Assembly: GCA_017848115.1 (NCBI GenBank)
Contig: JAGAKZ010000002.1
Location: 1 to 50,127, forward strand
Reading direction: 5' to 3'
Length of the DNA: 50,127 nt
Source: Oscillospiraceae bacterium
Lineage (GTDB): Bacteria; Bacillota; Clostridia; Oscillospirales; Ruminococcaceae
Below, one piece after another: positions 4,201 through 9,900 of the stretch. The position numbers and the translations under genes are program-made. Numbering within the stretch: the first letter of the stretch is position 1; the number at the start of each line of letters is the position of its first letter. Under the pieces are notes generated by a model. The model was not told where the DNA came from, searched no databases, and was given only the letters and a program-made list of their open reading frames with translations.

Positions 4201-4266
4201 ATATATGAAAAGTAGAATACGAAATAGTTTCTGCATTTAAATCTATGATAGAAGGGAATGGTGTTT

Positions 4267-4980
4267 ATGAAAATGACTTGGGAAGATATATATGATGTAT
4301 TTGATGGAGCGTCCTTATGGGAAAATGGTCACGATATGTACTGGTACAGACTCATGTGGGGACTTATGGAGTATAAGCACATGAATGAGTATGAAACTAC
4401 AGAAGAGAAAGTTAAGGTTTATTCAAGAGCTTTTTCCATTATACGTATATACATGGAGTTCATCGGACTTTGCTTTGAAGATGATGATGACGATTTTGTT
4501 GAGGCTATAAGCGATTATTCGTCAGATGTATTTGAATACCTTTATGATGAAGAAGATATAAAGGAAATCTTTTCTATACTCAATAAAGAACTGGGCACCA
4601 GAAGGACTTTCTATAGTATGTTTATAACCTGTATAGAGTTTAGAAGAGGAAGTGCATATTTCTTTGATGATGAAGATGATGAGTCGTATGAAGAATGTGA
4701 ATACAATGAATATGACGAAAATTTTGACGATGATTATGATGAAGATGAAGAATACGAAGAAGATGACGAATACTACTATGACGAGTATGAAGAAGATGAC
4801 GAAGAAGATGATGAAGAAGATGATGAAGAAATAGAATATTCTGAGGATTATTATACTTCATTTAATGAATATCTTAAAGTACTGGCTACGTCATCAATGA
4901 GCCTTCTCAGAAATATTACGCCAGAAAAAGCGGCTGCGTATCTCTATCTTGCAGGGAATATGCGTAATGAGAAGCAATAG
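4267..4980 (+). CDS. Orphan protein with a long Asp/Glu/Tyr-rich region
   Basis: Not recognised as a known family. A Trp/Tyr/Met-rich, probably helical N-terminal half (about residues 1-130) is followed by a low-complexity acidic stretch of about 60 residues made mainly of D, E and Y, then a 40-residue C-terminal helix-like segment. No signal peptide or membrane helix is seen. An ATG at 4258 also opens the frame, but AGGGA (4252-4256) touches it; the ATG at 4267 has proper spacing, giving 237 aa. It is monocistronic, with its own promoter and a terminator at 5013-5060. Acidic tracts of this sort are found in histone- or metal-binding and chaperone-like proteins, but nothing here decides among these. 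Repetitive GAA/GAT codons explain the spurious frames on the other strand. Confidence 0.75.
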   Translation: MKMTWEDIYDVFDGASLWENGHDMYWYRLMWGLMEYKHMNEYETTEEKVKVYSRAFSIIRIYMEFIGLCFEDDDDDFVEAISDYSSDVFEYLYDEEDIKEIFSILNKELGTRRTFYSMFITCIEFRRGSAYFFDDEDDESYEECEYNEYDENFDDDYDEDEEYEEDDEYYYDEYEEDDEEDDEEDDEEIEYSEDYYTSFNEYLKVLATSSMSLLRNITPEKAAAYLYLAGNMRNEKQ

Positions 4981-5093: not shown

Positions 5094-6239
5094 TTATAAA
5101 TCTTTTGTCCTTTTTTTCATTTTTAAATAGCCTATTATTGATTTGACAGAAAAAATACCGTATTCTATAATGACTATAAATGAAATGATACATAGAGTGA
5201 TTTTTGGAGGTGTCATTTCTCCATCGGTAAGCAATAGAATAATTAAATTTATATAAATAATTACTGCCAGTACAGAGGGTATAGTCATTTTATAGAAACG
5301 TCTTTTAAAAAAATCTGACATAGTGTTGTAATCACTATATAGTTCAGGAACGTTATCATTATCAGTGTATTCCTTACTCCATATACAATATCCTTCAACT
5401 TTGGTCACACTTGCAAAATGTAATTTCCAGCCCATCTCTTTGGTAATAGAAATATATTCATCAGAAATCTCATCTTGAAAGTCTACAACAAAACGAAGTT
5501 TGCATGGTTTTGATTTGATAAAATAAAATTCTGTTCCAAGTTTATCAAAACGATAGAATTTCCAGCCTTCCTGTGCCATTTTTTCTACCATTTTTTCAGC
5601 TTTATCAGGAGCACTTATCCAAAATAAAGAAGATTTTTTTATCATTTGTTTTGATTTTAGCATTATCTTTTCATCTTTTTTAGAATAGATAAAATTTTCT
5701 TTTGGTATTGTAAAATCAAAATCTACAGAATTTGTATTGTAAGATAGAATTTTTTTATTGGAATTATGTGCTATAAAAAGTGTTGTTAAGATAAGTAGTA
5801 TCATTATTGATAAGATAATAATGAGCACGGTGTTACTTGGCTGATTTTCTTTAAAAACAGTAATCATTCCCAAAATAAAACCTAAAGCCATGCAAAAAAT
5901 CATGAACGATATAGCCTGAACTTTTCTGTAATATGATACCCATTGTTTATAACTGGGGGCGACAGAATTTTTTTTATCAGGGTTTTTTATTATGTAGTGA
6001 TTTTTACATTCAGCACATTTTTCCCAGCCGTTTTCGGTAAAACGTTTTGGTACTTTACCGTTATAGTTTTTTTCTTTTACTATTCTAAATTTTAAATCTT
6101 CTTTTTTACCTTTTTCAAAAATGAATTTACCGCTTTTTTTAAATCCTGTAAGCAAAAAGCCTTCGGAGGCAAGTTGTGCAAGTTTATCTTCGGTTTTGTT
6201 TATATCCCATGACCATGAAGGTATAAATTTAACTGTCAT
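5094..6239 (-). CDS. DUF2812 membrane protein paired with PadR
   Basis: A 381-aa protein with two DUF2812-like segments: the first ~55 residues (SWSWDINKTEDKLAQLASEG and following) and about 200-300 (APDKAEKMVEKMAQEGWKFY and following). Both have the pattern of an amphipathic helix, an 'EGW/EGF' turn and beta strands. Each is followed by a pair of membrane helices (about 130-175 and 315-375). DUF2812 genes are typically found next to PadR-type repressors; here the start overlaps the PadR stop by 4 nt, which implies translational coupling. Function is unknown. PadR/DUF systems of this layout often respond to membrane or cell-envelope stress, which is inference for this case. Confidence 0.82.
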   Translation of the reverse strand: MTVKFIPSWSWDINKTEDKLAQLASEGFLLTGFKKSGKFIFEKGKKEDLKFRIVKEKNYNGKVPKRFTENGWEKCAECKNHYIIKNPDKKNSVAPSYKQWVSYYRKVQAISFMIFCMALGFILGMITVFKENQPSNTVLIIILSIMILLILTTLFIAHNSNKKILSYNTNSVDFDFTIPKENFIYSKKDEKIMLKSKQMIKKSSLFWISAPDKAEKMVEKMAQEGWKFYRFDKLGTEFYFIKSKPCKLRFVVDFQDEISDEYISITKEMGWKLHFASVTKVEGYCIWSKEYTDNDNVPELYSDYNTMSDFFKRRFYKMTIPSVLAVIIYINLIILLLTDGEMTPPKITLCIISFIVIIEYGIFSVKSIIGYLKMKKRTKDL

Positions 6240-6568
6240 TTTAACATTTCCTCCTGCGAAATGATATTTGAGTAAACGAGTTTTATACGATTGATCTCTG
6301 CTTTTAATATTTCTCTTCCGGTATCGGTGATCTCATATATGATTTTTTTGTCACTGTCATCATAAACATCGATCAGTCCGTCTTTCTGCATTTTTGTAAG
6401 TGTGCCGTAAACCGTACCTGAACCGAGTTTGATACGGTTTTCGGTAAGTTCTCCGACAAATTTCGTAATTCCGTAGCCATGACGTGGGGTGTTGAGGGAG
6501 AGCAGGATATAGAATGCAGTTTCTGTCATGGGCAGATGTTTTTTTATAAGTTTTTCAATATTGCTCAT
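6236..6568 (-). CDS. PadR-family transcriptional repressor
   Basis: A 110-aa winged-helix protein: MTETAFYILLSL opens the PadR helix 1, and GSGTVYGTLTKMQKDGLI (about 49-66) is the recognition helix and wing. The C-terminal helix is short, as in the small PadR-s2 subfamily. A GTG at 6577 could extend the frame, but the AAGG site is only 1 nt from it and ~10 nt from the ATG at 6568, so the ATG is preferred. It is the third gene of a four-gene minus-strand operon and very probably autoregulates it through the dyads at 7184-7235. Confidence 0.88.
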   Translation of the reverse strand: MSNIEKLIKKHLPMTETAFYILLSLNTPRHGYGITKFVGELTENRIKLGSGTVYGTLTKMQKDGLIDVYDDSDKKIIYEITDTGREILKAEINRIKLVYSNIISQEEMLK

Positions 6569-6583
6569 GTTTATCACGCCTTA

Positions 6584-7243: not shown

Positions 7244-7320
7244 TACAAAGAATATAAAATTGTAAGTACTGCATATGTGTGTTGAATTATTTTTATTAAA
7301 TATTAATAGTGAACTATAAA

Positions 7321-7364
7321 AAATAATCAGGAACAAATTTTTTACTACTCGTTCCTGATTATTT
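7321..7364 (-). terminator. Terminator of the murT-gatD-like operon
   Basis: A perfect 14-bp stem (7321-7334 with 7351-7364) directly after the gatD-like stop, with an A run on the plus strand (a U run in the minus-strand RNA). Confidence 0.8.
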
Positions 7365-7368
7365 TTTA

Positions 7369-8079
7369 TTAATGATCTTTCATATTTTTTGTACGCATTT
7401 CATTAAGACGTTTATTATATGCAGTAAGCGCTTCTTTTCTGTATGCAACCTGAGGTTTTTCAACTCCAAGAAGTGTCATGATATACTCAGTGAAGTAAGG
7501 ATTCATCACAAGAAGAGGTCCAACAAGGTTTGTGCCAAAAAAGTTGTTTTTGCGTATTCCTTCAAGTTTTGAATCATTGTTTATACCTATACCATGTTCA
7601 ACGCTTGCAAAAAAACAGTCGGAATTATCTCCGTATGTCATAGTAAACTGGGTTTTGAAACCAACTATATCCATTTCTTGAAATCTGCAAAGTGAAACGC
7701 AGTTTATACGTTTCATCATCTGTCTTTTTGCGTAAAAATCAAATATTCCAAGACCAGATATTTTTTCGCCTTCGTCAGTTTCAATATATTTAAAAAGTAC
7801 TTCCATTGAATTTCCGGTAAAAAGAAATATGGTATTTTTATTTATTTGTTCTTCAATTTTTGCTTTATATGGAGTAAGTTGTTTGATTATTTTTTCCTGA
7901 CCGCTTTCTGTACATGCTCCCATATATACCATATCTGCATCTCCTGAAACAAATGCAGGTGTGTCACAAAGGGAAGTATATATAAATTCGGCATCGGGTA
8001 AGCATAATTTTAAGTATTTTACATTTCCGGTGTCACCAAAGAGATTACAGAGCTCAGGATAAAGAATTTCAACACGCAT
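7369..8079 (-). CDS. GatD-like amidotransferase subunit lacking catalytic residues
   Basis: A 236-aa protein with the fold and length of GatD, the glutaminase that feeds ammonia to MurT for amidating D-Glu of lipid II. The GatD framework is retained: LCNLFGDTGNV near the N-terminus, ISGLGIFDFY (108-117) and GTNLVGPLLVMNP (182-194). However, the nucleophile block of active GatD (ICGGYQ) reads FTGNSM here, putting Thr88 where Cys should be. The catalytic His of the family's T-x-L-H-G-P motif is Val186. The early GGGSDREQ block is also altered (MGACTESGQ). Glutamine hydrolysis is therefore unlikely. Its start overlaps the murT-like stop by 11 nt, so the two are coupled. It may have become a structural or regulatory partner, or the pair may use another nitrogen source. 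Confidence 0.8.
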   Translation of the reverse strand: MRVEILYPELCNLFGDTGNVKYLKLCLPDAEFIYTSLCDTPAFVSGDADMVYMGACTESGQEKIIKQLTPYKAKIEEQINKNTIFLFTGNSMEVLFKYIETDEGEKISGLGIFDFYAKRQMMKRINCVSLCRFQEMDIVGFKTQFTMTYGDNSDCFFASVEHGIGINNDSKLEGIRKNNFFGTNLVGPLLVMNPYFTEYIMTLLGVEKPQVAYRKEALTAYNKRLNEMRTKNMKDH

Positions 8080-9448
8080 TTTTAAATTTCTCCTTTAAAT
8101 TATTCTCAGTGATACGGCGGAGATGTTCGTTATAAATATCAAAGACTACATATGTCGTTTCACAATTTGCGTCAATAAGTTCTGCAACATCTTCTTCGTG
8201 TTCACAACAGAATATTTTTTCTTGTGGTATACCGGCTATTAAAAGTCTCAAAGTATAGTCACCGGCACGTTCTCCACCTATAATGATTCTTTTTACACTA
8301 TCACAGTTTAAAAATTCAAAGTCAACATCATAAATCCATGCAGTATTTTCGGTTGCATACTTTGCATCAAACATATCGTCAAACAGCATGATTACATTTT
8401 TTTCTGAAGGATTGTCCCTTACTATATTGCAGGCATGTGAGCAGGCAACAGGATTTTGACCTTTTGCAAGAAGGCTGATGATTTTTTTATTATTTACCTC
8501 GATTATTTCAAATCTTGACTTTACAATACTGATTTTTTTGAAAGAGGCTTCAATCTGTTCGTATGTGAGACCGAATGTGCGCAGAGCTGTAATTGTAGCG
8601 GTAGCGTTATACACATTAATTGTATTTTCACATGGGATGAGATATTTGTATTCATTGCCTTCATTTGCAACTGTAATATGAGCTTTTCCATCATCTGTGA
8701 ATGTGCGCTCTATAACGTCGAAGTCAGCTTTTGGAAATTTAAAATCGCATTTTGAACAGGTTGCACGGCCTATATGGTTATATCTGATAAAATCATATTT
8801 TAAGTGAGCGTTGCAAATCGGACAAATGTTTATATCTTTTATTATGTTATCGGGAATAAGTCGTTCTCCGGGTATTTTTGCAATACCAAAATAGGTGCGT
8901 TTGTTCTGAAGCTTAAGACGAGAACTTATTATATCATCACAGTTAAGAACAAGATGTGATGAATCAGGAATATATTTGTTAAGTATATTAAAGATGTATT
9001 CTACATGAGCGTTTCTTTTATATGAATCTCTTGTAAGATTTGTGCATACAAGAATATCGGGTTTAATATATGGATATATTCTGAGAGCACTACGTTCATC
9101 TACTTCAAGAACGCAATATTTTTTCTTTGCTTTTCCTGACAATGTACTGTCTTTGAGAAGTGCTGTTGTGATACCAGTATCAACATTTCCACCAAAATTA
9201 TTGTTCGTACAGTCATAACCATTGTCGGTAAGGATATCGAGAATCATATTGCTTACTGTTGTTTTTCCGTTTGTACCTGTGATTGCTATTATTTTTTCAG
9301 GTTTTTCAAGATATTTCAGAAAATCGGGACAAATAGCCAGAACAACAGAGCCTGGCAGATTGGTTGCATTTCTTTTAAGAAGTTTTAAAAGTTTTATAGT
9401 TATTTTTCCGCATATTAAAGCAAATGAAAATTTTATTGGTTTTTTCAT
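8069..9448 (-). CDS. murT: MurT-like Mur ligase (divergent)
   Basis: A 459-aa Mur-ligase-fold protein. The ATP P-loop GTNGKTT is at 58-64. LEVDE follows at 114-118, and the inserted zinc ribbon typical of MurT is intact (C209, C212, C231, C234). The C-terminal domain keeps the AWIYDVDFE segment (370-378). Divergences are seen in the family's L-F-R-D-Q-x-x-R block (LTRDSYKRN here), the K-N-P block (KGQNP, 329-333) and the start of the N-D-N block (FDDMFD). MurT with GatD forms lipid II isoglutaminyl synthase; here the GatD partner lacks its catalytic residues, so the usual reaction is uncertain. The start follows AAGGAA, and a strong promoter lies at 9521-9549. A deleted duplicate of this gene sits immediately upstream. 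Confidence 0.85.
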   Translation of the reverse strand: MKKPIKFSFALICGKITIKLLKLLKRNATNLPGSVVLAICPDFLKYLEKPEKIIAITGTNGKTTVSNMILDILTDNGYDCTNNNFGGNVDTGITTALLKDSTLSGKAKKKYCVLEVDERSALRIYPYIKPDILVCTNLTRDSYKRNAHVEYIFNILNKYIPDSSHLVLNCDDIISSRLKLQNKRTYFGIAKIPGERLIPDNIIKDINICPICNAHLKYDFIRYNHIGRATCSKCDFKFPKADFDVIERTFTDDGKAHITVANEGNEYKYLIPCENTINVYNATATITALRTFGLTYEQIEASFKKISIVKSRFEIIEVNNKKIISLLAKGQNPVACSHACNIVRDNPSEKNVIMLFDDMFDAKYATENTAWIYDVDFEFLNCDSVKRIIIGGERAGDYTLRLLIAGIPQEKIFCCEHEEDVAELIDANCETTYVVFDIYNEHLRRITENNLKEKFKNAC

Positions 9449-9520: not shown

Positions 9521-9549
9521 ATTATATCATTAAGGCTAAAGATTTTCAA
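9521..9549 (-). promoter_or_regulatory. Promoter of the murT-like gene
   Basis: Minus-strand TTGAAA (9544-9549) and TATAAT (9521-9526) with a 17-bp spacer. The spacer, the -10 and the sequence after it resemble the promoter of the deleted duplicate at 9872-9900. Confidence 0.75.
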
Positions 9550-9569: not shown

Positions 9570-9824
9570 TCAGCCAAGAAGAACTATGTTTTTAGTTGTA
9601 GGGTTTTCACGTACTATATTGCAGCAATGTGAGGTAGCAACAGGGTTCTGGCCTTTGGTGAGAATACTTATTATTTTCTTGTTTCTGATTTCCATAGTGT
9701 CAAATCTGGTTTTGACAATGTGTATCTTTTTAAAAGAGGAGTTTATTTGCTCATATCTTAGAAGTTTTATAGTTATCTTGCCACACATTACAGCAAAAAT
9801 AAATTTTAAAGGTTTTTTTGACAT
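9570..9824 (-). pseudogene. Internally deleted murT duplicate
   Basis: An 84-codon frame made of two pieces of the adjacent murT-like gene. Residues 1-22 match its first 21 residues (KKPLKFIFAVMCGKITIKLL), and residues 23-84 match about residues 296-356 (YEQINSSFKK to KNIVLL), after which it stops. About 270 codons, including the P-loop and zinc ribbon, are missing, and the fusion is in frame. A GGAGTG ribosome site and a promoter (9872-9900) remain, so it could still be expressed as a small protein. Substitutions relative to the neighbour show that the duplication is not recent. Most likely a decaying tandem copy. Confidence 0.82.
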
Positions 9825-9871: not shown

Positions 9872-9900
9872 ATTTTATCACTAAATTGTGTTTTTTTCAA
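9872..9900 (-). promoter_or_regulatory. Promoter of the deleted murT duplicate
   Basis: Minus-strand TTGAAA (9895-9900) and TAAAAT (9872-9877) with a 17-bp spacer. The downstream bases resemble those after the murT promoter, so the duplication included the control region. The rest of 9825-10083 holds a TATAAT at 10019-10024 that probably serves the EAL gene; nothing else is recognised. Confidence 0.65.

Follow-up and report, generated by a model that had tools for sequence, protein, structure and literature searches.

A gene pair in the 50,127 nucleotides of an Oscillospiraceae bacterium analysed here (the window) has about an even chance of encoding, as an operon, a MurT/GatD complex with a glutaminase-dead GatD and a MurT that is fed by free ammonia. 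As read from the sequence, the proposed catalytic triad of Cys, His, and Asp is replaced, the residues for ATP, Mg, and the acceptor are kept, and the two-gene unit is retained under purifying selection. Among the three possibilities raised by an earlier sequence-only reading of this DNA (a new reaction, a regulator, or the use of free ammonia), free ammonia is favoured.

The gene pair and its active-site residues

The features of the pair, all on the minus strand, are the following.

7318..7360, minus: hairpin AATCAGGAAC / GTTCCTGATT, then a T run, just behind the gatD stop (read by eye)
7369..8079, minus: gatD-like gene, 236 aa, glutaminase fold without the catalytic residues
7522..7524, minus: GatD Val186, at the position of catalytic His189
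7708..7710, minus: GatD Arg124, retained at the position of glutamine-capturing Arg128
7801..7818, minus: GatD nucleophile elbow T88-G89-N90-S91-M92-E93, replacing I-C94-G-G-Y-Q, with Gly89 at the Cys94 position
7915..7917, minus: GatD Ala55, at the position of oxyanion-hole Gly60
8069..9448, minus: murT-like gene, 459 aa; the product is a Mur ligase carrying a MurT_C domain and a zinc ribbon
8345..8347, minus: MurT Asn368, at the position of Asp349, the proposed third triad member
8450..8464, minus: MurT K329-G-Q-N332-P333, the KNP block with a two-residue insertion
8747..8824, minus: MurT zinc ribbon (Cys209, Cys212, Cys231, Cys234), intact
9005..9031, minus: MurT loop R140-D-S-Y-K144-R-N-A-H148, with Lys in place of Asp137 and His in place of Glu141 (S. 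aureus numbering)
9260..9277, minus: MurT P-loop G58-T-N-G-K62-T63, intact
9521..9549, minus: promoter-like site TTGAAA-17-TATAAT (11/12), about 70 bases before the murT start, a consensus match only

The sequence-only reading had placed a MurT/GatD-like pair at 7369..9448, and it is there: the two reading frames overlap by 11 bases, and their products exceed the Pfam cut-offs for GATase_3 (GatD-like) and for MurT_C and Mur_ligase_M (MurT-like). The NCBIfam equivalog scores of the window proteins (GatD, 74.1 bits; MurT, 206.5 bits) lie below the respective cut-offs of 400 and 800, as do those of the canonical controls L020 and L021. Promoter-like consensus matches number 24 in the region, against a mean of 15.1 in shuffles. 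The hairpin and T run behind gatD are likely a terminator; the hairpin is absent from the output of the automated scanner, whose loop limit is 8.

Just upstream of murT lies a murT remnant, a second and broken copy (9570-9824, minus strand), in which an N-terminal stretch of about 22 residues is fused to a piece matching residues 294-355 of P0002 (68% identity) and ends early; a second promoter-like site (9872-9900) precedes it, and in the genus loci whose upstream sequence is long enough to tell, seven in all (L025, L244-L249), no such remnant was seen. On the other side of the pair, a PadR-type regulator and an overlapping gene for a membrane-looking protein (5094-6577, minus strand) lie between gatD and the gene for a very acidic protein with long Asp/Glu runs (4258-4980, plus strand). 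Homologues of the acidic protein occur near the pair in seven of 55 loci, window included, all seven of the host genus; the homologue in L025 has no Pfam match, and in the relative L009 the gene directly follows gatD on the opposite strand. Across the 55 loci surveyed, no family apart from murT and gatD was found in more than eight, and recurrences were mostly within the genus.

Residue counts given below refer to 71 rows of the clade to which the window pair belongs (the dead clade), 26 window-type rows, and 53 canonical rows with S. aureus among them. Thr88 of GatD had been proposed to occupy the place of the catalytic Cys, an assignment that must be moved by one residue: Thr88 aligns with S. 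aureus Ile93 and Gly89 with Cys94, a placement on which phmmer against the S. aureus chain, MAFFT, and hhalign agree, all gapless at the elbow. The companion assignment holds, with Val186 aligned to His189, where His is present in 53/53 canonical and 0/71 dead-clade rows (one of the latter, L030, ends before the site). Of the 71 dead-clade rows, 70 have Gly and one has Ser at position 94, and in this clade a new elbow motif, TGN[AS]xE, takes the place of CGGYQ. In S. aureus GatD the backbone of Cys94 has a conformation disallowed for ordinary residues (PMC5871853), so that Gly would be a natural replacement and would keep the shape of the elbow. The oxyanion-hole residues Gly60 and Gly95 have become Ala55 and Asn90 in the window; because the hole is formed via the backbone NH groups of these two residues (PMC5871853), the exchange of Gly60 for Ala55 alone proves little. 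The S. aureus variants C94A, H189A, and R128A have lost glutaminase activity (PMC5871853), and we infer by analogy that the window pair no longer uses glutamine. Each of the ten host-genus members with the pair has Gly at 94, Val (nine) or Ile (one) at 189, and Asn at MurT 349, an agreement by which a sequencing artefact is rejected as the source of the missing catalytic residues. The GatD fold itself is present, as judged from Pfam, the predicted structure, and fold matches that include chain 5dot (CPS1).

The pocket is held in the dead clade at Thr93 (65/71), Asn95 (60/71), Glu98 (62/71), and Arg128 (66/71); since these positions and Gly94 are not drifting, a bound ligand is suggested. In S. 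aureus GatD, Arg128 captures glutamine (PMC5871853), and its conservation despite the loss of the catalytic residues is what would be expected of a regulator or sensor, wherein the GatD pocket binds glutamine or another metabolite unhydrolysed and switches MurT on or off. Such a role is nevertheless improbable, as it leaves the nitrogen donor unexplained, the residues surrounding the pocket have changed, and Arg128 may serve structure only. Lower still is the probability that the complex remains a glutaminase by other chemistry, whether through another residue near the elbow or through a glutaminase acting in trans that feeds MurT from glutamine: the retained Arg128 and fold, together with the Thr just before the elbow position in 65/71 rows, would suit this reading, but there is no His at 189 and no conserved Cys near the elbow, and S. 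aureus C94S is without activity (PMC6113224). A substitute nucleophile was sought by alignment, and no conserved Cys was found near the elbow; Cys56, at the Gly61 position, was rejected as a candidate, given that Cys stands there in only 7/26 window-type rows.

In MurT, the P-loop and zinc ribbon were described from the outset as kept and the KNP and NDN blocks as altered, all of which can be read in the sequence; the NDN..D block is replaced. The window MurT keeps those residues to which binding of ATP, Mg, and the acceptor carboxylate has been assigned, by demonstration or by proposal (PMC6085368), and within the dead clade K59, E108, and D110 are kept in 71/71 rows and N85 and E111 in 69/71. 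The changes of this clade comprise Glu141 to His (64/71), an insertion before Asn316, and an altered DNAAD block. In S. pneumoniae MurT, the loop matching that with Lys for Asp137 and His for Glu141 lies at the GatD interface, where Ala at two of the sites concerned (D139, E143) had only minor effects on activity (PMC6085368). The KNP loop is thought to touch the ATP ribose. Asp349 has been proposed as the third member of the triad (PMC6113224); its position holds Asn in 23/26 window-type rows and, over all 71 dead rows, Glu in 30, Asn in 24, and Asp in 14. The predicted folds of both chains are intact. Residues 361-366 of MurT, the rebuilt loop, are modelled at a pLDDT <50, so no claim is made on their shape; S. 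aureus MurT chains superpose on the model at an rmsd near 8, against 3.6 for S. pyogenes.

Selection, distribution, and repeated loss

Purifying dN/dS, occurrence in 10 of 11 genus genomes, coupling in 47 of 48 loci, and intact predicted folds uphold the proposal that selection has kept a complex with a dismantled glutaminase site. The coupling to murT is indeed kept, gatD lying behind murT on the same strand in 47/48 dead-type loci of the order, within 26 bases in 46 of these 47; the 48th locus is at a contig end. Ten host-genus genomes (of 11 searched, own included) carry the gene, with 60-83% identity to P0001, and the exception is a genome that is 85% complete. Comparison of dN/dS across relatives, a check proposed with the sequence-only reading, gave values well below 1 for genus pairs (GatD, 0.024-0.192; MurT, 0.035-0.167), from the 13/45 GatD and 14/36 MurT pairs usable below the saturation limit, the frameshifted MurT of G007 being left out. 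For the five GatD pairs least saturated at synonymous sites (pS up to 0.61) the range was 0.024-0.089, and for the three MurT values listed among those five pairs it was 0.035-0.083. In G007 (L246 / L017) the murT reading shifts frame near residue 393, on a contig 3.25 Mb long, which could reflect a sequencing error or a real break. It is hardly credible that the pair is decaying and on its way out of the genome: the broken second murT copy just upstream (9570-9824) and the frameshifted reading in a genus member could be taken as signs of decay, against which stand dN/dS values of 0.02-0.09 in the least saturated genus pairs, carriage by 10/11 genus genomes, a dead GatD in 47/63 readable order genomes, and the age of the clade.

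A search for a second, canonical pair elsewhere in the host's own genome (81% complete) found none with MurT and GatD queries and a canonical MurT profile: the GatD query gave one match and no second GatD, the matches to the MurT query were the window gene, the fragment of it, and a single distant Mur-ligase-like sequence, and the profile gave the window gene only. A GATase_3 search of the same genome gave four other places and left the window GatD itself unlisted, and hence is not exhaustive.

Across the order, a MurT-like gene is present in 67/295 genomes, exactly one in each, with a dead-type or a canonical profile. The GatD sites are readable in 63 of these, with neither Cys nor His in 47 and both in 16; the other four comprise G080, G187, and G249, which are at contig ends, and G067, without gatD, whose canonical-type murT (L291) has no gatD behind it although it lies inside a long contig. 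Were the two types independent, 2.8 order genomes would be expected to hold both a dead and a canonical pair, and 0 were observed (P 0.044), a value that ignores kinship and rests on up to five candidates per genome, with three genomes without visible GatD counted as dead even though the MurT of G067 is of canonical type. The loss of the glutaminase is old and common to most MurT-bearing genomes sampled from the order (47/63 readable). In a sample of the phylum, 136/398 genomes have a MurT-like gene; among the matches listed, canonical profile scores dominate, and G000, G049, G549, G620, and the divergent G467 lean towards the dead type. The cultured human gut species Vescimonas fastidiosa MM35 (Oscillospiraceae) carries a dead pair with TGNAME and LLGP motifs on an 861-kb replicon, the record of which annotates the GatD-like protein as hypothetical. 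In a plasmid collection, 13 records hold MurT; of the five read, that of Vescimonas is dead, and those of Ruminococcus albus 7, Monoglobus, Leifsonia, and Tsukamurella are canonical. The titles of named dead-type loci include Oscillospiraceae, Clostridia, and Erysipelotrichaceae, many from animal guts.

For phylogenetic analysis, 131 distinct pairs and S. aureus were used, a non-random set (best profile matches and chosen regions) for which 14 of 166 MurT loci were left out for want of a GatD by the pairing rule (contig end, absence, or over-long ORF) and duplicates were merged. The 71 non-canonical pairs split from the rest with FastTree support of 0.999 (joined), 0.972 (MurT), and 0.984 (GatD), and IQ-TREE gave the same split (support 100/100) when run on 58 of the rows, 30 of them from the non-canonical group. 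Two further losses fall inside the canonical part of the tree, one in L151/L152/L160 (Cys to Gly only) and one in the f46 family. The GatD of L151, L152, and L160 has an IGLGFQ or VGLGFQ elbow and keeps the His, GGG, the oxyanion glycines, and a canonical MurT, a near copy, natural and independent, of the S. aureus C94G laboratory mutant. The f46 family (L223-L227), from small genomes, has divergent MurT and GatD with a TGSS-like elbow, altered MurT motifs, and a profile near the border; one of its genomes, G565, carries a canonical MurT gene in addition to that of the f46 form, with the canonical pair elsewhere in the genome. If the canonical state is ancestral, as a canonical Chloroflexi pair (L046), canonical MurT motifs in cyanobacterial records (L043, L047), and the Cys in related enzymes would suggest, the glutaminase has been lost at least three times. 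The rate of GatD relative to MurT has a slope of 1.01 in window-type pairs, 1.38 in the whole dead clade, and 0.74 in canonical pairs; a GatD that is faster relative to MurT in dead pairs is as expected of a scaffold, and argues against a sharp new role for GatD.

Nitrogen source and retention of GatD

We infer the acceptor (D-Glu2 of lipid II), the donor (ammonia), and the reason for the retention of GatD. On a peptidoglycan precursor linked to lipid, MurT would phosphorylate a carboxylate, which homology suggests to be the alpha-carboxyl of D-Glu2 in lipid II, and the acyl phosphate would be attacked by ammonia from solution rather than from glutamine. GatD would be kept since MurT depends on its binding to be stable or to adopt a competent conformation, and the old pocket of GatD may still take up a ligand. 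An ammonia-fed ligase with a dead yet needed partner is favoured because the S. aureus complex carrying GatD C94G no longer amidates with glutamine but still does so with NH3 at pH 8.5, and the same Cys-to-Gly exchange is present here; in S. aureus, neither subunit works alone and GatD is required even when dead (PMC3266927). Mammalian carbamoyl phosphate synthetase 1 is a precedent for a dead glutaminase domain kept in an enzyme fed by free ammonia (PMC4655335). The retained MurT residues, the recurrent loss of the glutaminase, the absence of order genomes with both pair types, and the faster GatD of dead pairs also count in favour. Several points count against ammonia. Neither the wild-type nor the C94G complex of S. 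aureus uses ammonia or NH4Cl at pH 7.5 (PMC3266927), so that a special adaptation would be needed; the held pocket positions suggest a bound ligand; and the MurT loops have changed in step, beyond what a mere change in the origin of the ammonia would call for, although Ala at two of the loop sites had only minor effects in S. pneumoniae. The S. aureus variant D349N, the natural state in the window, has amidation severely reduced (text) or abolished (legend) (PMC6113224), and S. pneumoniae D355A has it only reduced (PMC6085368). With the new motif conserved and the MurT loops rebuilt, an amine other than ammonia is a serious possibility as the nucleophile.

Tentatively, then, MurT may ligate an amino acid or other amine to the activated carboxylate, with the old glutamine pocket of GatD holding or gating the amine. 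Amino acids are used by other Mur ligases; the motif TGN[AS]xE replaces CGGYQ with Arg128 kept in 66/71 rows; MurT has acquired a His and lost Asp137 in its GatD-interface loop, and its KNP and DNAAD blocks have been remodelled; and a ligase gene of the ATPgrasp_ST family adjoins the pair in 4/55 loci (Pfam-confirmed for two of the four). The ATPgrasp_ST-type gene precedes the pair in three loci (L026, L027, L243) and follows it in the fourth, L044; the Pfam comparison covered L026 and L044. This possibility is countered by a GatD whose rate, measured against that of MurT, exceeds the rate in canonical pairs, by the lack of a conserved amine-supplying partner (among neighbour families that extend outside the genus, none occurs in more than 8/55 loci), and by observations on Selenomonas and Microbacteriaceae. 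The diamine modification of D-Glu in Selenomonas would go unexplained, Selenomonas noxia and Propionispira arboris being without a match of MurT strength; followed up as a lipid-intermediate diamine transferase, the idea yielded only weak Mur-ligase matches in these two (at most 44.8 bits). The genome of Anaerococcus ihuae has a MurT match of 346.9 bits. Microbacteriaceae are a family with type B peptidoglycan, in which D-Glu2 bears an amino acid; the one pair seen there, on a Leifsonia shinshuensis plasmid, is canonical, and this murT-gatD (L281) is followed by a VanY-like M15 peptidase gene. Slightly more doubtful is the broader form of this proposal, wherein a lineage of Mur ligases across Clostridia and some Erysipelotrichaceae would have a GatD that now binds or gates a different amine and would carry out an undescribed modification of lipid II, at D-Glu2 or elsewhere.

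The published literature searched, with most subscription journals outside its reach, contained no report of a glutaminase-dead GatD or of such a clade, and it yielded nothing on the peptidoglycan of the host genus. murTgatD has been counted as widespread in Clostridiales, with no separate dead type in the main-text parts of that paper (PMC6085368); available parts of a study of archaeal MurT-like proteins without GatD mention no dead GatD (PMC11915815), and those of a 2024 review list no peptidoglycan type for Ruminococcus or Oscillibacter (PMC11382707). A gene annotated as gatD in a record named Microcystis phage MaAM05 (MW495066.1, 121507-122184) encodes a product with 28% identity to the window protein.

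Amidation of D-Glu2 affects peptidoglycan cross-linking and immune sensing, and MurT/GatD is studied as a drug target. The commoner form in the sampled order appears unable to use glutamine, and annotation by homology would therefore predict the wrong chemistry. These related, largely gut-dwelling bacteria probably modify a cell-wall building block with free ammonia or another amine, and the pair renders testable which nitrogen source they use and which group is put on their cell-wall precursor. Natural complexes resembling C94G and kept by selection likewise offer a route to learning why MurT needs GatD at all.

Comparison with known systems

The closest relatives of the window pair are the MurT/GatD complexes of S. 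aureus, S. pneumoniae, and S. pyogenes, with which it shares a two-gene unit of murT followed by gatD on the same strand, a Mur ligase with MurT_C, P-loop, acceptor Asn, Mg ligands, and Cys4 zinc ribbon, both folds, and Arg128. Unlike them, it is without the catalytic Cys94 and His189, has Asp349 replaced and the oxyanion residues changed, and has a rebuilt interface loop and rebuilt KNP and DNAAD blocks. The pair is thus related to MurT/GatD and probably works like it, yet fails the catalytic part of the family definition. As in the S. aureus C94G laboratory mutant, Gly stands at the catalytic Cys and a GatD is present that, to judge from its residues, would be unable to use glutamine; in the window, by contrast, the change is natural and old and is accompanied by changes at His189, Asp349, and the MurT loops.

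Two further systems offer partial parallels. The glutaminase domains of CobQ (cobyric acid synthase) and CobB belong to the same Pfam family, GATase_3, and to our knowledge are not paired with MurT. They have the canonical Cys and His (PMC5871853); in the host's own genome, the strongest GATase_3 matches lie on other contigs than the window. Mammalian carbamoyl phosphate synthetase 1 resembles the window pair in keeping a glutaminase domain without its nucleophile; it differs in being another synthetase, on a single polypeptide, with Cys changed to Ser, and it retains its class I glutaminase-like domain, the Cys lost, while taking ammonia from solution (PMC4655335).
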